Source of the DNA: Actinomycetes bacterium
GTDB taxonomy: Bacteria > Actinomycetota > Actinomycetes > Nanopelagicales > Nanopelagicaceae
Reading direction: 5' to 3'
Length of the DNA stretch: 52,235 nt
Assembly: GCA_023252155.1 (NCBI GenBank)
Contig: JAHEXJ010000007.1
Coordinates: 1 to 52,235, forward strand
This document shows, one piece after another, positions 17,252-52,235 of the stretch. The notes below the pieces were generated by a model. It had not been told where the DNA came from, did not search any database, and saw only the letters and a program-made list of their open reading frames with translations. Position 1 is the first letter of the stretch, and every line of letters begins with the position of its first letter. The position numbers and the translations under genes are program-made.

Positions 17252-17983
17252 ATGAGCCTCTACCGTGATCAAGCGGTTGTTATACGCACCCAGAAGTTGG
17301 GGGAGGCCGATCGCATCATCACGATGCTCACTCGCGATCACGGTCGAATTCGCGGAGTAGCAAAAGGCGTGCGCCGGACGAGATCAAAATTCGGCGCTCG
17401 CCTCGAACCCGGTAGTCATATTGATGTTCAACTTTTCGTCGGAAAAACTTTTGACACCGTAACGCAGGTTGAAGCCATCGAGAATTTCGGCGACGTCTTA
17501 TCAAAAGATTATCGACGTTGGACGATTTCATCAGCAATTTTGGAGACCTCCGAGAGATTTACGTCGCAAGAGCGCGAACCAGCTCTTCAGGAATATCAAC
17601 TTGTGGTCGGTGGTTTGAGATCACTCGCTGAGGACCGTCACGATCCTTCGCTCATTCTTGATGCATTTCTCCTTCGTTCGTTGGCGTTGGGTGGCTATGC
17701 GCCGTCGATGACTATCTGCTCTCGTTGCGAAAAACCCGGCCCTCATCGATATTTCTCTTTAGTAGGGGGCGGAAGCGTCTGCACAGATTGTCGCCCCTCT
17801 GCCTGTGCAACCCCGGCAACGGAGACCCTTGAGTTGATGTCGGCACTACTTAACGGCGATTGGAATACGGCCGATGAAAGTGAAGGTAAACATCGTCGCG
17901 AAGCAAGTGGTCTGATTGCTGCCTATTTGCAATGGCATTTGGAGCGCGGACTCCGAAGTTTGTCGATTGTGGAGCGAGCATGA
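17252..17983 (+). CDS. recO: DNA repair protein RecO
   Basis: Recombination mediator that helps load RecA on gapped DNA with RecR. The 243 residues show the N-terminal OB fold ([40 protein letters not shown]), a helical middle, and a zinc site with Cys156, Cys159, Cys177 and Cys180 (CSRC and CTDC). TACGGT ends six bases before the ATG, so the transcript is probably leaderless. The stop overlaps the uppS ATG (ATGA), coupling the two genes, as widely seen in actinobacteria. Confidence 0.94.
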
Positions 17984-18735
17984 CTCGCGCACCCAAGCCT
18001 CATCGTTCGGGCGCACTGCCTCCTAAATTTGCGGCACAGGCCATACCGAATCATGTTGCAATCGTTATGGACGGAAATGGACGATGGGCGCAAGAAAGGG
18101 GATTGCCTCGCACAGCCGGACACGAAGCTGGGGAGGCCGCTCTCTTTGATGTAGTTGAAGGCGCGATAGAAATTGGAATCAAAGAGATAAGTGCATTCGC
18201 TTTTTCCACGGAGAATTGGCGACGGTCACCGGATGAAGTGAAATTTTTGATGGGCTTCAATCGAGATGTCATCCGGCGACGCCGCGATGAAATGAACGAA
18301 TTGGGTGTGAGAGTGCGTTGGGTAGGACGGCCCAAGAGATTGTGGCGAAGTGTCATCAAAGAGTTGGAAGTTGCCGAAGAGTTGACACAAAGAAATGAAG
18401 TTTTAACGCTGAATATGTGTGTCAATTATGGCGGCCGAGCAGAAATCGTTGACGCTGCTGCAGCTATGGCTCGAGACGTGGAGGCAGGCATTCTCGACGC
18501 GAGTGCAATCACCGAGAAAGTGTTTAGCCGCTATTTGGATGAGCCGAAGATGAGCGATGTTGATTTATTCCTCCGTTCATCTGGTGAAATGCGGACGAGC
18601 AATTTTCTTCCGTGGCAATCTGTTTACGCGGAATTGGTTTTTATGGATGTTCTATGGCCCGATGTCGACAGACGAATCCTTTGGCGCGCAGTGGAGGAAT
18701 ATGCCCTCAGGGAACGACGATTCGGCAAGGCCTAG
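17980..18735 (+). CDS. uppS: Isoprenyl transferase (undecaprenyl diphosphate synthase family)
   Basis: Makes the long-chain isoprenoid carrier for cell wall synthesis by cis addition of isopentenyl diphosphate. With the ATG at 17980 it has 251 residues. Asp31 in [16 protein letters not shown] is the catalytic magnesium ligand, FSTENWRRS follows, and [19 protein letters not shown] with [13 protein letters not shown] forms the second substrate site. The start is set by the ATGA overlap with recO and a GGAG upstream; the frame is open further upstream, but that part overlaps recO deeply. Product chain length cannot be read from the sequence. Confidence 0.94.
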
Positions 18736-18799: not shown

Positions 18800-19447
18800 A
18801 TGAAGATTGAAAGAAAATCTAACGGGATGGACGAGGGAGACGTTTTCTACGTCGAGCCAATGCGCGCAAGTGCAGTCGCCAAAGGTTCCACTACCCGCAG
18901 GATTTTTCGGCGATTCATTCCCTTCGTAATAACGGCAATACTCGCATCGGCTCTCACCTTTGGAGTCGTGAGGTACACCGAGCCTGAGCATTTCGGTTTG
19001 GCCTTCGCCCTTCAGGCGGCCAAAGGAAAAGTGGCCCTTACGCAAGCCCAGTTGAGGGATTTGGTAGTCGGGGAAGGGCTGATCGTCTACTGGCTTGGAC
19101 CAGAGGTGGGGGCCCGCTACACCCTTGTCTCGGTTAATAAGAATCAGAACTACGTCCGGTATCTGCCTGGAGGAGTAGGTCTTGGCGATGCCGGGGCGAA
19201 TTTCAGGGTGGTCGGAACCTATGAAACCAAAGATGCCTTCTTGGTTACCCAGAATCAGGGGAAGGGGGCCAACTCTGTTGAGTTCACTAACTCAGATGGG
19301 GATTCCGTCTATTACAATACGCAACGTCCCTTGAGCGTCTATGTTGGACTAAAGAACACCGATGACCAGATTGAGCTGTTCAACCCCATCGCCGGCCAGG
19401 CGCTGACGGATGCAAAGACACCCGGACTTATTACTCGAATCTCCTAA
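18800..19447 (+). CDS. One-TM exported protein, unknown family, member A
   Basis: I do not recognise a named family. The 215 residues have a basic cytoplasmic start (TTRRIFRRF), one TM segment (about 39-57) and a C-terminal domain of about 150 residues that should lie outside. It is clearly related to the genes at 19795, 47694 and 51674. Shared marks are a helix after the membrane, YWLGPEVGARYTL at 97-109, YLPGG about ten residues on, a G-T-Y segment, and VYYN...VYVGL near the end. No cysteine pair or catalytic signature is seen. It lies 64 bases after uppS, between uppS and zur where actinobacteria usually have neither gene. It is likely co-oriented with member B but 347 bases from it. Confidence 0.8.
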   Translation: MKIERKSNGMDEGDVFYVEPMRASAVAKGSTTRRIFRRFIPFVITAILASALTFGVVRYTEPEHFGLAFALQAAKGKVALTQAQLRDLVVGEGLIVYWLGPEVGARYTLVSVNKNQNYVRYLPGGVGLGDAGANFRVVGTYETKDAFLVTQNQGKGANSVEFTNSDGDSVYYNTQRPLSVYVGLKNTDDQIELFNPIAGQALTDAKTPGLITRIS

Positions 19448-19451
19448 CGAT

Positions 19452-19477
19452 CGCGTCTTCTGAGGGCTTTAGACGCG
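19452..19477 (+). terminator. Possible terminator hairpin after family member A
   Basis: CGCGTCT (19452-19458) and AGACGCG (19471-19477) form a 7-bp stem with a 12-base loop just after the stop of member A. There is no T tract, so termination would be weak. Confidence 0.35.
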
Positions 19478-19542
19478 CGAATTGACCTCGATACTCCAAA
19501 TATGTCTATTTGACCCCTTTTGACATTTCCAAGTGGTAACCA

Positions 19543-19617
19543 ATGCCTTTATTTTGGTACTCTGGCTGCCGTGAGTTTCAACAACTCCGAGGTTTTGCCC
19601 CCCGTTTGGGGGGCTAG
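19543..19617 (+). CDS. Possible 24-residue ORF ending in a GC hairpin
   Basis: In the 347-base gap between family members A and B an ATG opens a 24-codon ORF (MPLFWYSGCREF...). Its last codons and stop sit in a perfect stem GCCCCCC-GTTT-GGGGGGC (19597-19614). There is no clear ribosome site. A TTGACA at about 19520 could be part of a promoter. The overlap of stop and hairpin recalls leader-peptide control, but there is no T tract and no codon bias that names an amino acid. Low confidence that it is translated. Confidence 0.25.
   Translation: MPLFWYSGCREFQQLRGFAPRLGG
19597..19614. other. GC hairpin between family members A and B
   Basis: Perfect 7-bp stem GCCCCCC / GGGGGGC with a GTTT tetraloop. 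It would be very stable in RNA but has no following T tract. It might pause or end transcription, or separate expression of member B from upstream. Confidence 0.7.
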
Positions 19618-19658
19618 GAGTTCTCAATTTCAATCAAGATGGGAATTCGAGGTAAAGG

Positions 19659-19790
19659 ATGCCTGCTCGAATTTCCACAAGTTCCTCTGGCATGAATGGT
19701 TACTACACGACGACGTCAACTGACATGTTCAAATTCACTTGGGGGAGTCGCCAGATAAAGAGGAAAATCTATAAAAAGGTCAGAGGATAG
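19659..19790 (+). CDS. Possible 43-residue basic small protein upstream of member B
   Basis: An ATG with GAGG seven bases upstream opens a 43-codon ORF. It starts MPARISTSSSGMNGYYTTTS and ends in a basic tail (FKFTWGSRQIKRKIYKKVRG). Its stop is only four bases before the ATG of family member B, the spacing of coupled genes. No homology is recognised. A 21-residue ORF (47618-47683) with a similar aromatic-basic end, FTFNNWKRENR, lies before family member C. Both may be real small proteins or leader ORFs, or chance. Confidence 0.35.
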   Translation: MPARISTSSSGMNGYYTTTSTDMFKFTWGSRQIKRKIYKKVRG

Positions 19791-19794
19791 CGAC

Positions 19795-20397
19795 ATGCTT
19801 GACAGCGGCATACGTGAAGTCACGGGTATATATGAGCCCGTGCGGAAAGTGCGTTTTCGTCGCGTAATTCCCTATGTCGTGACGGCCCTGATTTTCTCAA
19901 CAGTTAGTTTTGGCGCAGAGTATTACTTCAACACGAAGCGGTCGGCTTCAGAAGAAGTCTTGCTGGTTCTGCACGGCGGCAAAGCTGTCGATGAAGCCGA
20001 ACTTCGCCATGTGGTGGCTGCAAACCACCTCACTGTCTATTGGGTCGGCCCTGAAAAAGGGGCCAAGTATGTATTAAACGCGGCCGTTCTCAGCAGTATT
20101 TCACTTAGGTATCTTCCACAAGGCTCGTCGCTGACGGATACAACTTCGACGTATCGCGAAGTCGGCACATTCACATCCCCTGACGCTTTCAACGTTACTC
20201 AAAAGGCCGGAACGCAAGCCAACGGCGTGGGCTTTGTGAACGTCGATGGCAATGCAGTTTATTACGATTCACGAGATCCAAAAAATGTTTATATAGGCAT
20301 AAAGGGCAAAGATATTCAGGTGGAAATTTTCGACCCCCGTCCAGATCAATCGTTAGCGGCCGCCATCATGCGCCATCAAGTACAGCAGATTAAGTAG
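19795..20397 (+). CDS. One-TM exported protein, unknown family, member B
   Basis: A 200-residue paralogue of the gene at 18800. It has a basic N-terminal end (VRKVRFRRV), a TM segment near 24-40, then the outer domain with YWVGPEKGAKYVL at 82-94, RYLPQG at 105-110, EVGTFTSPDAFNV, GNAVYYDS and NVYIGIKG. The order of blocks is the same as in member A across the whole length, so this is a duplication that has diverged strongly. An AGAGGA ribosome site precedes the ATG. It ends in an inverted repeat shared with the convergent zur gene. Function unknown; the insertion beside the zinc module may be coincidence. Confidence 0.8.
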   Translation: MLDSGIREVTGIYEPVRKVRFRRVIPYVVTALIFSTVSFGAEYYFNTKRSASEEVLLVLHGGKAVDEAELRHVVAANHLTVYWVGPEKGAKYVLNAAVLSSISLRYLPQGSSLTDTTSTYREVGTFTSPDAFNVTQKAGTQANGVGFVNVDGNAVYYDSRDPKNVYIGIKGKDIQVEIFDPRPDQSLAAAIMRHQVQQIK

Positions 20398-20410: not shown

Positions 20411-20776
20411 CTAGCAATCTGAGCATGTGCCGAAAATTTCCGCGCTGTGCCCGACATCCCTAAAGCCATTTTTGTTCGCAACGGTTTCCGCCCATTTTTC
20501 AATAACGCCACCTTCAATTTCAACTGTACGTCCGCATTTTTTGCAAACAAGATGATGGTGATGTTCATTTCCGCATAATCTGTAGATGGCTTCGCCGTCA
20601 TCGCGACGAAGCACGTCGACAAAATTATCTTTCTGCAAACTCTGCAAGGCGCGGTAGATCGTCGTAAGCCCAATCCGATCGCCCTGGCGCGTGATGAGTT
20701 GGTGAACTTCTTGGGCGCTTGCGAATCCGCCAACATGCTCGAGGGTCTTTAGGACCTTGGTTGCGGATTTGTTCAT
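20411..20776 (-). CDS. zur: Zinc uptake regulator, Fur family
   Basis: Zinc-sensing repressor of 121 residues. The winged helix is seen in VGGFASAQEVHQLI and GLTTIYRALQSL. The sensing and dimer part has HHHH (72-75), CKKC (78-81) and the final CSDC (118-121), the two cysteine pairs of the structural zinc site. The ATG at 20776 overlaps the ZIP stop (ATGA); the longer open frame upstream lies wholly inside the ZIP gene and is not used. Zur rather than Fur is chosen because of the ZIP partner, the Zur-type operator at 21537 and the glyS neighbour, which is the mycobacterial furB context. Confidence 0.9.
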   Translation of the reverse strand: MNKSATKVLKTLEHVGGFASAQEVHQLITRQGDRIGLTTIYRALQSLQKDNFVDVLRRDDGEAIYRLCGNEHHHHLVCKKCGRTVEIEGGVIEKWAETVANKNGFRDVGHSAEIFGTCSDC

Positions 20777-21519
20777 GCGATTCCGATGTGACCGACTACT
20801 AACCACATGAAGACCACGCCGACCAGTGTCGCCACCATGGTCAGTTTGGACGGGTGTCGAGAGTGAGCTTCCGGCAAAATATGCGAGGTAGCCAGATAGA
20901 TAACGAATCCCGAGAAGATGGCCAGATAGATCCCAAGTATTGGGTCGCTTATCTTGATATGAGTGCCGAGCGTCGCGCCGCTTATGCGCATAACTGCATC
21001 CAAGCCGAGTAGCCAGAGCGCTCGCTTTTTCCAATGACCGCTCTTGATGAGGAAAGAAACCGTGTTTAGCCCGTCGCTAAAGGCGTGGGCCAAGATGGCG
21101 ATGAAGACCGCAATGCCGAGAGCGTGGCTGACTTGGAAGGCCAAACCTAGAGCAACACCGTCGAGAAAAACGTGACCGCCCATGGCGATACCACCGATTG
21201 TTCCGGCGATGTTGGCAGCGTGGTTGTGCTCGTGGCCATAATCGGACTCGCTGGGTTCGTGGGAAGCAAATAACTGTTCAGCAAAATGGAGGGTGAAAAA
21301 TCCGACGACAAAGGCAATCGAAACCGTCGGAACATTTCCAATCGTGGATTTATTAATGGTGAAGACTTCTGGCAGAAGATCAAAAGCCACCAGACCGAAG
21401 AGCAATCCCGCGGCAAGACCGAGCACCAGATGGAGGCGGTCCCGAGAGCGATGAGCTAGAAACCCACCGACCGAAGTCGAGATCGCCGTAAGGGCTGCTA
21501 GCCCGATGGCTACGTTCAT
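20773..21519 (-). CDS. ZIP family metal transporter
   Basis: Probable zinc importer, 248 residues from the ATG at 21519. It has about eight TM helices, and its core shows the metal-binding helices MGGHVFLDGVALGLAF (TM4) and AILAHAFSDGLNTVSFL (TM5). A cytoplasmic loop with HEPSESDYGHEHNHAAN is rich in His, as usual in ZIP proteins. TACGGT ends six bases before the ATG, so the mRNA is probably leaderless. The Zur operator is 18 bases upstream, covering the promoter. Transporter and regulator form an operon that should open when zinc is low. Confidence 0.9.
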   Translation of the reverse strand: MNVAIGLAALTAISTSVGGFLAHRSRDRLHLVLGLAAGLLFGLVAFDLLPEVFTINKSTIGNVPTVSIAFVVGFFTLHFAEQLFASHEPSESDYGHEHNHAANIAGTIGGIAMGGHVFLDGVALGLAFQVSHALGIAVFIAILAHAFSDGLNTVSFLIKSGHWKKRALWLLGLDAVMRISGATLGTHIKISDPILGIYLAIFSGFVIYLATSHILPEAHSRHPSKLTMVATLVGVVFMWLVVGHIGIA

Positions 21520-47693: not shown

Positions 47694-48320
47694 ATGCCCA
47701 AAAATGCGAGTACTCTCAGGCGCTTAGCAATGCGCGAGAGGATCTTACGGCGGCGATATCACCGCTCCCATCCACATTTCAAGAGAAATATCGCAGTGGA
47801 CGCAATTGTATCCTGCCTCCTAGTCGTCATTCTGTTTGGCGAAATCAATCACGTCTCCGAAAATTCACGACTTCAGACTTTGATGCGTTCAGGGGCAATT
47901 GCCATGACCGCTCACCAGCTTGTTAATCACGTCAAATCCGCGAGCGTAGATGCGTACTGGTTCGGTCCCATCTCCGGCTACAAGTACACGATCATCTATG
48001 TAAATCCAAAAGAAATTATTGTTTCCTATGTTCCGCAAGGAGTAAGCCTCAATACTCCGGATCGATACAACCTCACGGTTGAAACGTATTCGAAGTCTGC
48101 TTCAAACGAACTGCCCGGTAAATCAAATGTTTCCACCGACAAAGACGACTTTCTGACATCAAGTGGAGCGATATCAAGTATCTACTCGGACCATCCGCAA
48201 ACCGTGAAGTACGTTGTTCCTCGGAGCGATAAGTACGTAGAAGTCCAATACCCATCTAACACAAGTATTTTTGATGTTTACAAAGGCGAGGGACGTTTGA
48301 AATTGATTTCAGAATCGTAA
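47694..48320 (+). CDS. One-TM exported protein, unknown family, member C
   Basis: A 208-residue relative of the genes at 18800 and 19795 and closest to the split gene at 51674. The basic N-terminal segment (RERILRRRYHRSHPHFKRN) precedes a TM segment near 33-49 (AVDAIVSCLLVVILFGE). SGAIAMTAHQLVNHV, YWFGPISGYKYTI at 88-100 and YVPQG then begin the outer domain. The C-terminal part keeps the strand pattern (VKYVV...VEVQYP). AGGGGA precedes the ATG. Its end overlaps the convergent cfa gene by 12 bases. Function unknown. Confidence 0.8.
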   Translation: MPKNASTLRRLAMRERILRRRYHRSHPHFKRNIAVDAIVSCLLVVILFGEINHVSENSRLQTLMRSGAIAMTAHQLVNHVKSASVDAYWFGPISGYKYTIIYVNPKEIIVSYVPQGVSLNTPDRYNLTVETYSKSASNELPGKSNVSTDKDDFLTSSGAISSIYSDHPQTVKYVVPRSDKYVEVQYPSNTSIFDVYKGEGRLKLISES

Positions 48321-49559
48321 TCTGAGCGGCAAATTATTCTGGCCATCAGCATTGTTTTCTACGCCTAAGAACTGGTGGATCTGAATCGAATTTGTTTCGA
48401 AGCCGATCTGGCTGAGGGACATGTAAAGGTTCCAGATCCTTGCCCGATTTACACCAACTTCAGCGACTGCGTCTTCCCAATTGGCCTGAAGGTTTTCGCA
48501 CCATTTACCTAGAGTCTTTGCGTAGTGTTCGCGGAGATTCTCGCTGTGGCGCAATTCGAACCCTGAGTCGTGCATTGCTTGCACTACGCGACTAGGAGCC
48601 GTGAGTTCTCCATCGGGGAAGATGTACCGATCGATAAAAGCGCCAGTTCTTGCTCGTTGAAGCGAGGTCGGTCTAGTAATGCAATGGTTGAGTATTCGCC
48701 CCTGTTCTTTGATTCGCTGATGCAATTGTTTGAAATAGAGATTGAGCTTTGAGTCGCCTACGTGCTCGCTCATCCCCACCGACGAAATGGCGTCAAAATC
48801 AGTCTCGGTAACTTCGCGATAGTCCTGAAGTCGGATCTCAACTGATTCTTGAAGATTTGCCTGAGAAACCCTTGATTGCGCCAAGGCGAGTTGATTTCCG
48901 CTCAATGTGACGCCCACGGCCTTCACGCCATATTCCTTAGCGGCGTGCAACACGAGCGTTCCCCACCCACATCCGACATCGAGTAATTTCATCCCCGGTT
49001 TGAGATCGAGTTTTCTGCAGATCAAGTCGATTTTCTCCATTTGTGCCGTCTCTAGGGTTGATTGCTCGGAGTCGAAGACGGCGCACGAGTAGACCATGGT
49101 CGGGCCGAGAATCATCGAGTAGAAATTATTGGAGACGTCATAGTGATGTTGGACGGCGGACTTGTCGCGAGTTAGTGAATGCAGGAGTCCGCGTCGATAT
49201 CGAGGGGGAGCCTCCTCGGCTGGAAGATCGGGACGAACTACTGCGGCGGGGCCGACGGCGGTTGCAAGTTTGGCCAGCCCGTCGACTGGGATCGGGTGCT
49301 TGATGAAGTCCTTTAGAGCCAGAAGAGTCTGATGGATGTCGCCTCTGATGTCCAAATGATTTGTGATGTAGGCCCGGGCAAGACCGAGATCGCCTGGGTG
49401 GCTCAGTATGTAGCGCAAGGCGAGGGGTGATTTGATTTCGAGGATATTGGATGAATCAAGATTGCCAGCGGCACTTCCATCGAAGGCTGAAAATTTAATG
49501 GGCACGGCATCACCAAAGAGAGACGATACCTTCTGCGCGATCATCTTTGTCTCTGACAT
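48309..49559 (-). CDS. cfa: Cyclopropane-fatty-acyl-phospholipid synthase
   Basis: Adds a methylene group from S-adenosylmethionine across double bonds of membrane lipids. About 416 residues from ATG 49559 (GGAG upstream). The N-terminal part (SHPGDLGLARAYITNHLDIR) is the lipid-binding cap. The methyltransferase core has HHYDVSNNFYSMILGPTMVY, LLDVGCGWGTLVLHAAKEYG near 190, and SVGMSEHVG. The end has FPDGELTAPS and YAKTLGKWCENL. Changes membrane fluidity under stress. Divergently placed from nothing: it ends inside member C and its start faces the two-component pair. Confidence 0.92.
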   Translation of the reverse strand: MSETKMIAQKVSSLFGDAVPIKFSAFDGSAAGNLDSSNILEIKSPLALRYILSHPGDLGLARAYITNHLDIRGDIHQTLLALKDFIKHPIPVDGLAKLATAVGPAAVVRPDLPAEEAPPRYRRGLLHSLTRDKSAVQHHYDVSNNFYSMILGPTMVYSCAVFDSEQSTLETAQMEKIDLICRKLDLKPGMKLLDVGCGWGTLVLHAAKEYGVKAVGVTLSGNQLALAQSRVSQANLQESVEIRLQDYREVTETDFDAISSVGMSEHVGDSKLNLYFKQLHQRIKEQGRILNHCITRPTSLQRARTGAFIDRYIFPDGELTAPSRVVQAMHDSGFELRHSENLREHYAKTLGKWCENLQANWEDAVAEVGVNRARIWNLYMSLSQIGFETNSIQIHQFLGVENNADGQNNLPLRLRF

Positions 49560-49661
49560 TACGGTTCTCCAGTCCGCGCATTTTGCCGATTGCGATGCTG
49601 TACTAAGAGAATAATCCAAAATCCGGCTCAGGTCACCGAATTTTCAGTCCTAAAAAGTTGG

Positions 49662-50771
49662 TTATTCAAAAGGTACTTGGAGTGAGACTCGTGTGCCGAA
49701 GCCTGGTTGGCTTTCAATGGTGAGTCTGCCGCCGACTAATTCGGTCCGCTCATACATTCCCTGAATGCCAAGGGATCTCGAGGGACTTGGGCCGAAGTTC
49801 CACATCCCTATGCCATTGTCGGTCACCGTGATCTCAAAGGTTTCGCCGACGTAGTTCCAGAGAACTTTCACAGCGGTGGCTCTAGAATGCTTTTCGATGT
49901 TATGAAAGGCCTCCTGCATTACGCGAAATATATGAATGAGATCTTGGTTGGGAATTGCTCGTGGCTCCCCGGTCGTTTCAAAGTCCGACTTGATCCCGGT
50001 GCGGTTCTCCATTTCGCGGGCGATCCATTCGACTGCTGGAATTAGACCCATCGAATCAAGAAGCATCGGTCGAAGTTCTTCGCAATACCGACGGATGGCG
50101 TCAGAGGTCATGGCGATGGTCTCTTTCGCGCGAAGCATCTGTTTGCGAGTCTCCTCCGGATCTTCAGCGCGAATAGCTCCATCTATCTGACGTGTGACAG
50201 TGGCTAGAAGCTGGAGCGAATCATCATGAAGATCTCTCGAGATTCTCCTGCGTTCATTTTCCTGCGCCTCGCTGGCGAGCTTGAAATACCTATCCTTCTC
50301 TCGAATCATCTCGTTCATCCGGTCGTTAAGCCCTTGCATGCTCTGCCGAGAGGCTCCATCGCGCGAGACTAATATCGCAACGATTACTGCCATCACGGAA
50401 ATAACCGTGAATCTGGCAGCTAGAACATGATCGTAGGACACCGGCCACCAGGAATAGATTTTCGGAATTAAGAAGATGGAAGTTAGAAGGATGGTGAAAA
50501 TGACTGCCGTCGTTCCGAAGATGATGGCTGACGAGAGTGTGGCGATCAGATAGAAGAACACGAAGGCCTGTAGAGCGAACGAATTCTCCAGTCTAAATGT
50601 GAGTGCTCCGGCATTTTCGACCCGCGAAGGCAGCGATACGATTTCGATGCAACTAACGAGGTTCAAAACTTGTATAAGCCAGAAGCGAAAATCTCTGTAT
50701 GGAGGAAAGTTTTTGCGTAGAAAATCGCGCGTGGGGTTGCTATCGGCCGGCAAATTCACTGAAGCCTTCAA
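49662..50771 (-). CDS. NarL-type sensor histidine kinase
   Basis: A 369-residue membrane kinase for the adjacent response regulator. Four or five TM segments fill residues 28-135, with little outside, so it probably senses something in the membrane. A coil leads into the HisKA_3 H-box ERRRISRDLHDDSLQLLATV with His182. The ATPase is at the end (DNGIGMWN, RSLGIQGMYERTELVGGRL, PGFGTRVSLQVP). A TTG two bases after the regulator's stop or a GTG at 50759 with GAAGG before it may be the start. The operon order is regulator then kinase. Confidence 0.9.
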   Translation of the reverse strand: MKASVNLPADSNPTRDFLRKNFPPYRDFRFWLIQVLNLVSCIEIVSLPSRVENAGALTFRLENSFALQAFVFFYLIATLSSAIIFGTTAVIFTILLTSIFLIPKIYSWWPVSYDHVLAARFTVISVMAVIVAILVSRDGASRQSMQGLNDRMNEMIREKDRYFKLASEAQENERRRISRDLHDDSLQLLATVTRQIDGAIRAEDPEETRKQMLRAKETIAMTSDAIRRYCEELRPMLLDSMGLIPAVEWIAREMENRTGIKSDFETTGEPRAIPNQDLIHIFRVMQEAFHNIEKHSRATAVKVLWNYVGETFEITVTDNGIGMWNFGPSPSRSLGIQGMYERTELVGGRLTIESQPGFGTRVSLQVPFE

Positions 50772-50773
50772 AG

Positions 50774-51451
50774 TTACGGCAGCTGAATCGAACGGTCACG
50801 TATGGCTTTTGTGACGGCTTCTGTCCGCGAGGAAACGTCAAGTTTCATAAATATATTATGCATGTGCACTTCTATTGTTCGATTGCTCAGGTTTAGATTC
50901 TCACCGATGTTCTTGTTAGTGATTCCTCGCGCAGCCAACTCCAAAATCTGAATTTCGCGTTTAGTAAGTCCGAAAGAATTAACAACTTGCGCTGAAGGGT
51001 CTGGATTTTCTGGGAAGAGGGCAATCGAAGGAGTAATCACTGTGGTCCCGCTAAGTACGGTCAGGATCGCCTGGCGAAGTTCGGGTGTAGTCGCTGTTTT
51101 GAGAAGATAGCCATTTGCACCTGCCTTAAGCACCGTTCGAACTCGGTCGATTTCTGCAGTCGCCGAAAGAACAATAATTTTAGTTTTAGGAAAATCGGCT
51201 TTGATCATTTGAGTGGCCTGCAATCCTGGAATTCCAGGCATGTGGCAATCCAACAGGACTACGTCGGGTTCGAGAGCAGCGATCAAGTCATACGCTTGCT
51301 GTCCGTTCTCAGCTTGTCCAACAATCTCAATGGCCTCGGCGCCGCCGGCTAGTTCTTCGCACAGTCCCGCGCGAAAGATGGGATGGTCATCCACGACCAA
51401 CAATCGGATGCCCGAGGGTTTTGGAGTGCGCGCGACGGTGCTAGTGGGCAT
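50774..51451 (-). CDS. NarL/FixJ family response regulator
   Basis: A 225-residue regulator with the start at ATG 51451. Receiver domain: VVDDHPIFRAGL, Asp68 in VVLLDCHMPG and Lys118 in GYLLKTA. LuxR-type HTH: LTKREIQILELAARGITNKN, then LSNRTIEVHMHNIFMKLDVS. GGAGG and AGGA both lie before the ATG; a GTG at 51463 is possible. Divergent from the fourth family member across 222 bases, so that gene is a natural target. Confidence 0.9.
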   Translation of the reverse strand: MPTSTVARTPKPSGIRLLVVDDHPIFRAGLCEELAGGAEAIEIVGQAENGQQAYDLIAALEPDVVLLDCHMPGIPGLQATQMIKADFPKTKIIVLSATAEIDRVRTVLKAGANGYLLKTATTPELRQAILTVLSGTTVITPSIALFPENPDPSAQVVNSFGLTKREIQILELAARGITNKNIGENLNLSNRTIEVHMHNIFMKLDVSSRTEAVTKAIRDRSIQLP

Positions 51452-51603
51452 CGTTCCTGCCACCTCCGTAGGTACTGCAAAAAATATGACTGGTCATTAT
51501 CGCCCGATCATCCGCAAAATATCGGGAACACGCTCATCGACCTGGAACCTCTGGCCCCAGTAGGTGTATCCCACATACCAAGTATGGGGGGTTCGCGTAT
51601 TCC

Positions 51604-51673: not shown

Positions 51674-52235
51674 ATGGTGATGGCAATGCCTGACCTGGTT
51701 TCCCCGATGAGGCGAGAGGCCGGTGTATTCCTTCGGTACAGTCGATCGCGGCCGCGGTTCAGACTTCACCTTGCAATCGATGCCATCGTTTCGGTTGCTT
51801 TTGTGCTCATTGTTTTTCACCTCGCCGGGGGGGGTTTCGCAAAGAGAGAATGCAGACACGTTGAAGCTTTCTGGCGCCATTGCCATGAGTGGGGGAGAGC
51901 TCTCCTCCTTCATCCATCATGAGAATCTTTCGGCGTATTGGGCCGGGCCCTCACCAGATGCTAAGTACACCTTGATTGCCACAACCCCCGGGGAGGTGAC
52001 CATCACTTATTTCCCGAAGGATGCCGACATCTCGCAAGTGGGAACCGGTTCGCTAGTCGTTCAGACTCATCGACATTTCTCTTCACATGACGCCGAAGCG
52101 TACGCTCAAGATGTGTCAGGACCGGGAAGTTTTCTCCTGAATCAAGGAAGTGAAGGCCGCGCAATTCACTATAACCCCGCAACTCCAACGCGAGTCACTC
52201 TTACGTTTAACGATCATTTTGAGGTGGTAACAATC
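51674..52235 (+). pseudogene. One-TM exported protein, unknown family, member D, split at a G8 run; incomplete at the window end
   Basis: The first frame has a basic start and a TM segment near 36-52 (LAIDAIVSVAFVLIVFHLAG). After eight Gs (51827-51834) it leaves the family and stops at 51922. The next frame continues exactly where members A-C do: VSQRENADTLKLSGAIAMSG, then YWAGPSPDAKYTL, ITYFPKD and more, open to the end of the window. Seven Gs instead of eight would restore one full protein. So this is a phase-variable gene, a recent knock-out or a homopolymer read error. It is the closest relative of member C. It is divergent from the NarL pair. Confidence 0.7.

Follow-up and report, generated by a model that had tools for sequence, protein, structure and literature searches.

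RseB/MucB-type proteins pass envelope signals to regulators in other bacteria, and adhesive surfaces typically bear collagen-like proteins. In bacteria, most knowledge of collagen-like proteins comes from pathogens and spores, and little is understood of how the cell surface holds, modifies and senses them. Among the collagen-like surface proteins of bacteria are Scl and BclA, the latter of which is known to be glycosylated (PMC8968730). In the PclR/PclA system of pneumococcus, a collagen-like gene lies divergent from a regulator gene (PMC9276737).

Here we describe a family of small membrane proteins from uncultured, small-genome actinobacteria. The main point beyond the original prediction for this DNA is that the family is recurrently linked both to collagen-like proteins and to a membrane protein of GT-C-like layout. 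The window, by which we mean the whole stretch of 52,235 nucleotides that was analysed, is one whole contig (C57) of a metagenome-assembled genome (G000; 1.81 Mb, 83.8% complete).

Family members in the window

The original prediction had grouped four genes of the window into one family of exported proteins. These genes and their neighbours are as follows.

17932..18735, + strand: uppS (undecaprenyl diphosphate synthase), assigned from sequence, upstream of member 1
18800..19447, + strand: family member 1 (P0001), 215 aa, intact ORF
19795..20397, + strand: family member 2 (P0002), 200 aa, layout as member 1, intact ORF
20411..21034, − strand: ORF with zur (Fur-family regulator), which bounds the insertion on its other side
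47694..48320, + strand: family member 3 (P0003), 208 aa, divergent subgroup, convergent with the CMAS gene
48309..49619, − strand: cyclopropane fatty-acid synthase (CMAS; PF02353), adjoining member 3
49662..51463, − strand: histidine kinase and LuxR-type response regulator, divergent from member 4
49662-50771, − strand: the histidine kinase of this pair (PF07730/PF02518)
50774-51463, − strand: the LuxR-type response regulator of this pair (PF00072/PF00196)
51674..52235, + strand: family member 4, with a frameshift in a run of eight G, cut by the contig end

The four-gene observation held overall and needed one correction. Members 1 to 3 (18800, 19795 and 47694) are intact ORFs at their predicted positions, but the gene at 51674 is broken, its frame stopping at 51922 after 82 aa. 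The membrane part of member 4 lies in the 51674 frame and its outer domain in a different one (51723 onwards), the change of frame occurring at the run of eight G (~51827-51834). In G013 its relative is uninterrupted, with an ORF of 209 aa. Another contig of the same genome, C113, begins at the G run with a stretch (L108:1-403) nearly identical to the one that follows in the window, and the same gene lies downstream of the member 4 counterpart in C113 and in G013. The end of C57 and the start of C113 are therefore probably one locus in two haplotypes, in what looks like an assembly fork, and the 12 family matches of the genome amount to about 11 genes, which bears out the expectation of many copies. 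The extra G may be real, phase-variable or an assembly error.

Sequence, topology and selection

As predicted, the members form one family with a shared layout of an Arg-rich tail, a single membrane helix and an outer domain of ~140 aa, and they align over the YW-x-GP, Y-x-P and beta-rich region. In P0001 the AlphaFold model and hydropathy place the membrane helix at about residues 34-60 and the outer domain at about 76-215, with the N-terminal tail presumably cytoplasmic. Hydropathy detected a single membrane segment in every member tested, among them P0001, P0003 and the N-terminal part of copy 4, except P0002, which fell below the threshold used. Surface exposure, which had also been proposed, agrees with this layout, and we infer from it a topology with the tail inside and the domain outside. 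Identity to P0001 in the first four-row alignment was 40, 26 and 24%, and P0001 as query found the other members in the G000 genome at E values from 1.9e-39 to 9.9e-9; judged by sequence comparison, the resemblance among members is far beyond chance. Six residues of the outer domain (G, W, G, Y, Y and T) do not vary across 26 aligned members.

No family match to Pfam, NCBIfam or PHROGs was found among 29 members scanned, nor any match in a sequence search of PDB, in agreement with the view that the proteins belong to no family that could be named. A single Amidase match in one member (E 0.003) was taken as chance. Gly-X-Y repeats are absent from the aligned members, which gave no PF01391 match, and we found no paper on the family in the literature on collagen-like proteins or on its fold group. 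The family is thus a real and uncatalogued one of small single-pass membrane proteins with an outer domain.

The original prediction had further taken the genes for old duplicates kept under selection. Both uppS-linked genes have orthologues throughout the carrier clade, as expected of old duplicates. The dN/dS against G013 was 0.04 for the gene at 19795, 0.10 for that at 47694 and 0.05 for uppS; other pairs were saturated at silent sites, and these two members, the only ones testable against G013, show values close to that of uppS, which supports selection on both.

Predicted fold of the outer domain

The AlphaFold model of P0001 had a mean pLDDT of 82.8, with the outer domain mostly above 90, and that of P0003 a mean pLDDT of 78.3. 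The outer domain was predicted as alpha-beta3-alpha-beta4-alpha. The proposal that the members share one fold was checked on these two models, which have the same order of elements except for one helix and match the same solved structures, so that differing folds, which would have counted against the proposal, were not seen; the alignments behind them share rows, so the models are not independent. The nearest solved structures for both were DIP2269 (3v7b), which we take to be a DUF4245 (PF14030) member, the RseB/MucB small domain, Tsi3, TP0453, Mog1p, PsbP and Apa. The best Z scores, 6.5 and 5.7 for the two models, are weak, as unrelated models commonly reach Z 7-8, and Foldseek against PDB returned no E below 1e-3. 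The best single match, 3v7b, had Z 6.5 and rmsd 4.6 over 114 residues with one model and Z 4.7 with the other, values which unrelated models often exceed. A relation to DUF4245 by sequence was set aside, with a profile-profile probability of 0.2% and E of 0.25, and no family member scanned had a Pfam match to PF14030. PsbP, Mog1p, Apa and TP0453 presumably belong together as the Mog1/PsbP-like fold, and the models suggest a fold of this kind in outline only, the matches being a coherent but statistically weak group.

Distribution and gene trees

In the window genus 10 of 21 genomes carry the family, with 2-12 copies each, and 11 have none. The first four-row profile found no match in 16 genomes of other genera of the same taxonomic family (G021-G036) or in 23 further members of the class. 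A phylum-wide draw of 396 genomes added two carriers, both of another class, in which 10 of 149 genomes, spread over 7 genera, were then found to carry the family with single or tandem domains, the tandem proteins being two copies of the same outer domain. A scan of named genomes by closer alignment returned 12 loci, from uncultured actinobacterial MAGs of lakes and groundwater. The expectation that the family would be widespread in actinobacterial proteomes was not borne out, for it is confined to one clade of one genus and scattered members of another class; it is neither universal nor an orphan.

In the gene tree, whose branch supports were not inspected, the members of the window genus cluster together and are nested within the diversity of the other class. 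Because of this nesting, a single horizontal acquisition into the genus with later expansion is suggested by the sequences. A RecO+UppS tree splits all carriers of the genus from all non-carriers (support 76). The carriers are a single group in the genus tree, and co-occurrence within the genus therefore counts as one event.

The uppS-zur insertion site

Orthologues of uppS were found in 20 of the 21 genus genomes. The junction is readable in nine carrier genomes, and in all of them uppS and zur are separated by one to three family genes; in non-carriers zur follows within a few bases of uppS or after a different gene of ~380 aa. The observation that the first two genes sit inside a conserved uppS-zur-glyS block is thereby confirmed, since the non-carrier genes abut or are separated by an unrelated gene. 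This ~380-aa gene was seen at the junction of four non-carriers, G020, G010, G014 and G009 (L202, L204, L206 and L208; ~2.2-3.4 kb), and the site therefore accepts insertions repeatedly. The position between uppS and zur tells little on function.

Collagen-like neighbours

In the genus, genes for secreted Gly-X-Y proteins directly adjoin family genes at 10 places in six genomes (G000 C11 and C55; G002 C14, C16 and C63; G013 C122; G015 C2:34k; G017 C41 and C79; G018 C113). At two more places (G015 C2:954k and G006 C39) a Gly-X-Y repeat lies inside the neighbouring regulator, so that collagen-like genes or collagen-linker regulators adjoin family genes in 7 of the 10 carrier genomes. By hand count, and among the matches listed, these genus genomes hold at least about 31 collagen-like ORFs, from which, with positions also counted by hand, 0.4-0.6 adjacent pairs would be expected by chance. 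The adjoining places fall into at least three ancestral sites, and raw Poisson values therefore overstate the evidence. On the gene tree, the collagen-linked genes of the genus fall into two groups on separate branches. In the other class a collagen-like gene was found within about 3 kb at 5 of 11 loci, against 0.09 expected. In both classes, such genes lie close to the family much more frequently than chance would predict. Most family loci, including all four of the window, have no collagen-like gene alongside. Three further members (G003 C25, G004 C6 and G013 C18) lie at contig ends, where our guess is that a Gly-X-Y repeat may have interrupted the assembly. The genus has many collagen-like genes, in non-carriers too, and collagen-like proteins therefore do not need the family.

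An LCP gene follows a set of one collagen-like and two family genes in G000 and adjoins a family gene in G013. We also noticed that a gene for a protein starting with ..KKGQ..VIYLPEG.. follows the pair of collagen-like and family gene in six genomes (L103:5796-6500, L107:7301-8320, L121:2832-3650, L127:7143-8039, L130:5750-6670 and L132:1173-2144). The L107 copy resembles a SipW-type signal peptidase, with 26% identity over 175 aa; it seems to be without the catalytic Ser and His and may therefore be an inactive signal peptidase.

The GT-C-like membrane protein

At 5 of 11 loci of the other class (G437, G403, G506, G461 and G480), the gene immediately downstream of the family gene encodes a multi-membrane protein of ~800 aa, and at a sixth (G532) this gene lies about 2 kb away. 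The protein has 8-13 hydrophobic segments, and an LDD motif (residues 117-119) in an early loop, which would be an outer one, is invariant in 10 homologues. This agrees with the GT-C layout, in which 8-13 membrane helices are combined with an acidic motif in one of the first outer loops. Searches of Pfam, NCBIfam and PDB sequences returned no match for the protein, known GT-C families included, and the label 'GT-C' therefore refers to the layout only. In the genus the gene is present in 9 of 10 carriers and in none of the 11 non-carriers, at places not linked to family genes; G005 has the family and lacks the GT-C-like gene. In the other class it is present in 6 of 10 carriers vs 11 of 139 non-carriers (Fisher p 1.4e-4). 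A hidden divergent family member beside lone GT-C-like genes was looked for in 15 stretches and none was found; the GT-C-like protein often occurs without the family, as in these 11 genomes.

Genes for GT2 and DUF2304 proteins lie near the GT-C-like gene of both G000 and G532. Near that of G506 and that of G013 there is a GT2 gene; the DUF2304 of G532 and the GT2 of G013 were recognised by eye. Near the GT-C-like gene of G004 (L189:9406-11349) there is a SipW/archaeal-type signal peptidase gene (TIGR02228) with small secreted proteins alongside, a layout reminiscent of fibre-forming surface proteins.

Regulators beside the divergent subgroup

The gene tree has a divergent, fast-evolving subgroup that includes window copies 3 and 4, the latter through its C113 version. 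Its members often adjoin regulators, which belong to a LuxR-type family in 9 loci (11 genes). In the genus all 11 full-length members of this regulator family adjoin a family gene and none was found in non-carriers, although the profile was built from 8 of those 11 genes and the exclusivity is weaker than it looks. That these regulators are generic was considered and rejected, as full-length ones were found only beside family genes, with a profile made mostly from those. The member in G000 C46 has an ECF sigma/zf-HC2 (anti-sigma) pair as its neighbour, and this gene order recurs in G018 C80 and G013 C128. In the two-domain protein of G461 (L061:437-1852) an Mrr_N-like winged helix stands before the membrane helix (E 5e-5, below the Pfam cut-off), and its sequence suggests a one-protein membrane-spanning regulator. 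The idea of surface sensors, put forward originally for the family as a whole, gains support for the divergent subgroup, whose members stand beside LuxR-type regulators, a two-component pair or an ECF sigma/anti-sigma pair, and a sensory role for part of the family is supported.

Two LuxR-type (GerE) regulators adjoining a family gene, in G015 (L105:7067-8047) and G006 (L143:4873-5844), carry a long Gly-X-Y segment (PF01391) between the N-terminal and the DNA-binding domain. A collagen-like linker in a cytoplasmic regulator is unusual.

Discussion

The family, its layout, predicted fold, distribution and neighbourhoods are shown here. From the recurrent collagen-like, GT-C-like and regulator neighbours it follows that the family probably serves the cell-surface coat, which it would help to build, hold or sense. 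We tentatively propose, at a probability of roughly 0.4, that its members are membrane-anchored outer adaptors of a cell surface that is collagen-like and probably glycosylated, and that a sensory branch has split off from them. This adaptor reading is preferred because it ties most of the evidence together, with a primarily sensory role next; it is built on the neighbourhoods, and the binding partner, glycosylation, signalling and topology in it are deduced. The Arg-rich tail would stay in the cytoplasm while the single helix anchors the protein, and the outer domain would bind a secreted Gly-X-Y protein, or a glycan on it that could have been placed by the GT-C-like membrane protein with its GT2/DUF2304 partners. 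The outer domain may then hold, present or monitor the bound client at the membrane, different paralogues perhaps being dedicated to different clients, and the fast-evolving subgroup, coupled to adjoining regulators, would probably report the state of the surface to transcription. A sharper version, in which conserved paralogues of a receptor/adaptor family hold the collagen-like proteins of a glycosylated coat and fast-evolving ones signal the state of that coat to paired LuxR-type regulators, some with a collagen-like segment, appears doubtful to us.

It is possible, if on the unlikely side, that the proteins are foremost transmembrane sensors which pass an envelope signal through the single helix to an adjoining cytoplasmic or membrane regulator, the links to collagen-like and GT-C-like genes being secondary. 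The company of all 11 full-length LuxR-type regulators, of the two-component pair at 49662-51463 in the window and of the ECF sigma/anti-sigma pairs argues for this, as do the winged helix of the G461 protein and the RseB/MucB small domain among the nearest folds. However, besides the partly circular regulator profile, the regulator linkage is found mostly in the fast-evolving subgroup, the conserved uppS- and collagen-linked members being mostly without it, and the cytoplasmic tail of most members is short. It seems improbable to us that the proteins assist, as accessory subunits, a pathway of lipid-linked glycans (GT-C-like enzyme, GT2, DUF2304, uppS and LCP) by positioning or handing over glycans for the cell wall at large, with collagen-like genes as mere co-residents of variable regions. 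Such a role would account for the direct gene order with the GT-C-like protein at 5 of 11 loci of the other class, for the presence pattern of that protein in the genus and for the uppS and LCP neighbours. But uppS adjacency is probably a mere insertion site, because the uppS-zur block exists without the family, and the GT-C-like gene of the genus is located away from its family genes.

We think it quite unlikely that the proteins are adhesins or variable antigens of the surface whose many copies help the cell to evade phages or grazers. The multiple copies, the exposed position, the fast-evolving subgroup and the collagen-like neighbours would fit this, but the strong purifying selection on the two members that were compared with G013 (dN/dS 0.04 and 0.10) and the tethering of one small domain close to the membrane speak against it. 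That they are immunity or toxin-like proteins of the Tsi3 kind is hardly credible: Tsi3 is among the nearest folds at Z 5.2-5.8, which is below the range common for unrelated models, and no recognisable toxin gene was met in the neighbourhoods, which were read rather than searched systematically for toxins. The suggestion of toxin-like partners thus found no support beyond this weak likeness to an immunity protein.

If the adaptor reading is true, it would provide a candidate parts list for a collagen-like surface in small-genome freshwater and groundwater actinobacteria, consisting of a domain family in two actinobacterial classes, a GT-C-like enzyme and, in one subgroup, regulators, and an uncatalogued domain would gain a testable role.

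Compared with known systems, the family resembles DUF4245 (PF14030) in having one membrane helix and one outer domain, in actinobacteria. DUF4245 occurs, however, as one copy in most members of the class and is absent from the window genome G000, whereas this family is multi-copy and patchy. The Mog1/PsbP-like group is matched weakly by both models, at Z about 3 to 5, which does not imply a common function. The RseB/MucB small domain is similar in outline (Z 5.1-5.8) and the family likewise stands near regulators; but RseB/MucB has a large lipid-binding domain, which this family lacks, being membrane-anchored with a single ~140-aa domain after the helix, and the partner of this family would not be of the RseA type, except possibly at the ECF-linked loci. 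With the collagen-like surface proteins such as BclA and Scl the likeness lies in the Gly-X-Y genes that are recurrent neighbours, while the family itself is without Gly-X-Y repeats and would be a partner rather than a collagen. PclR/PclA has no known involvement of this family, whereas in the genomes described here regulators adjoin a gene for a membrane-anchored domain.
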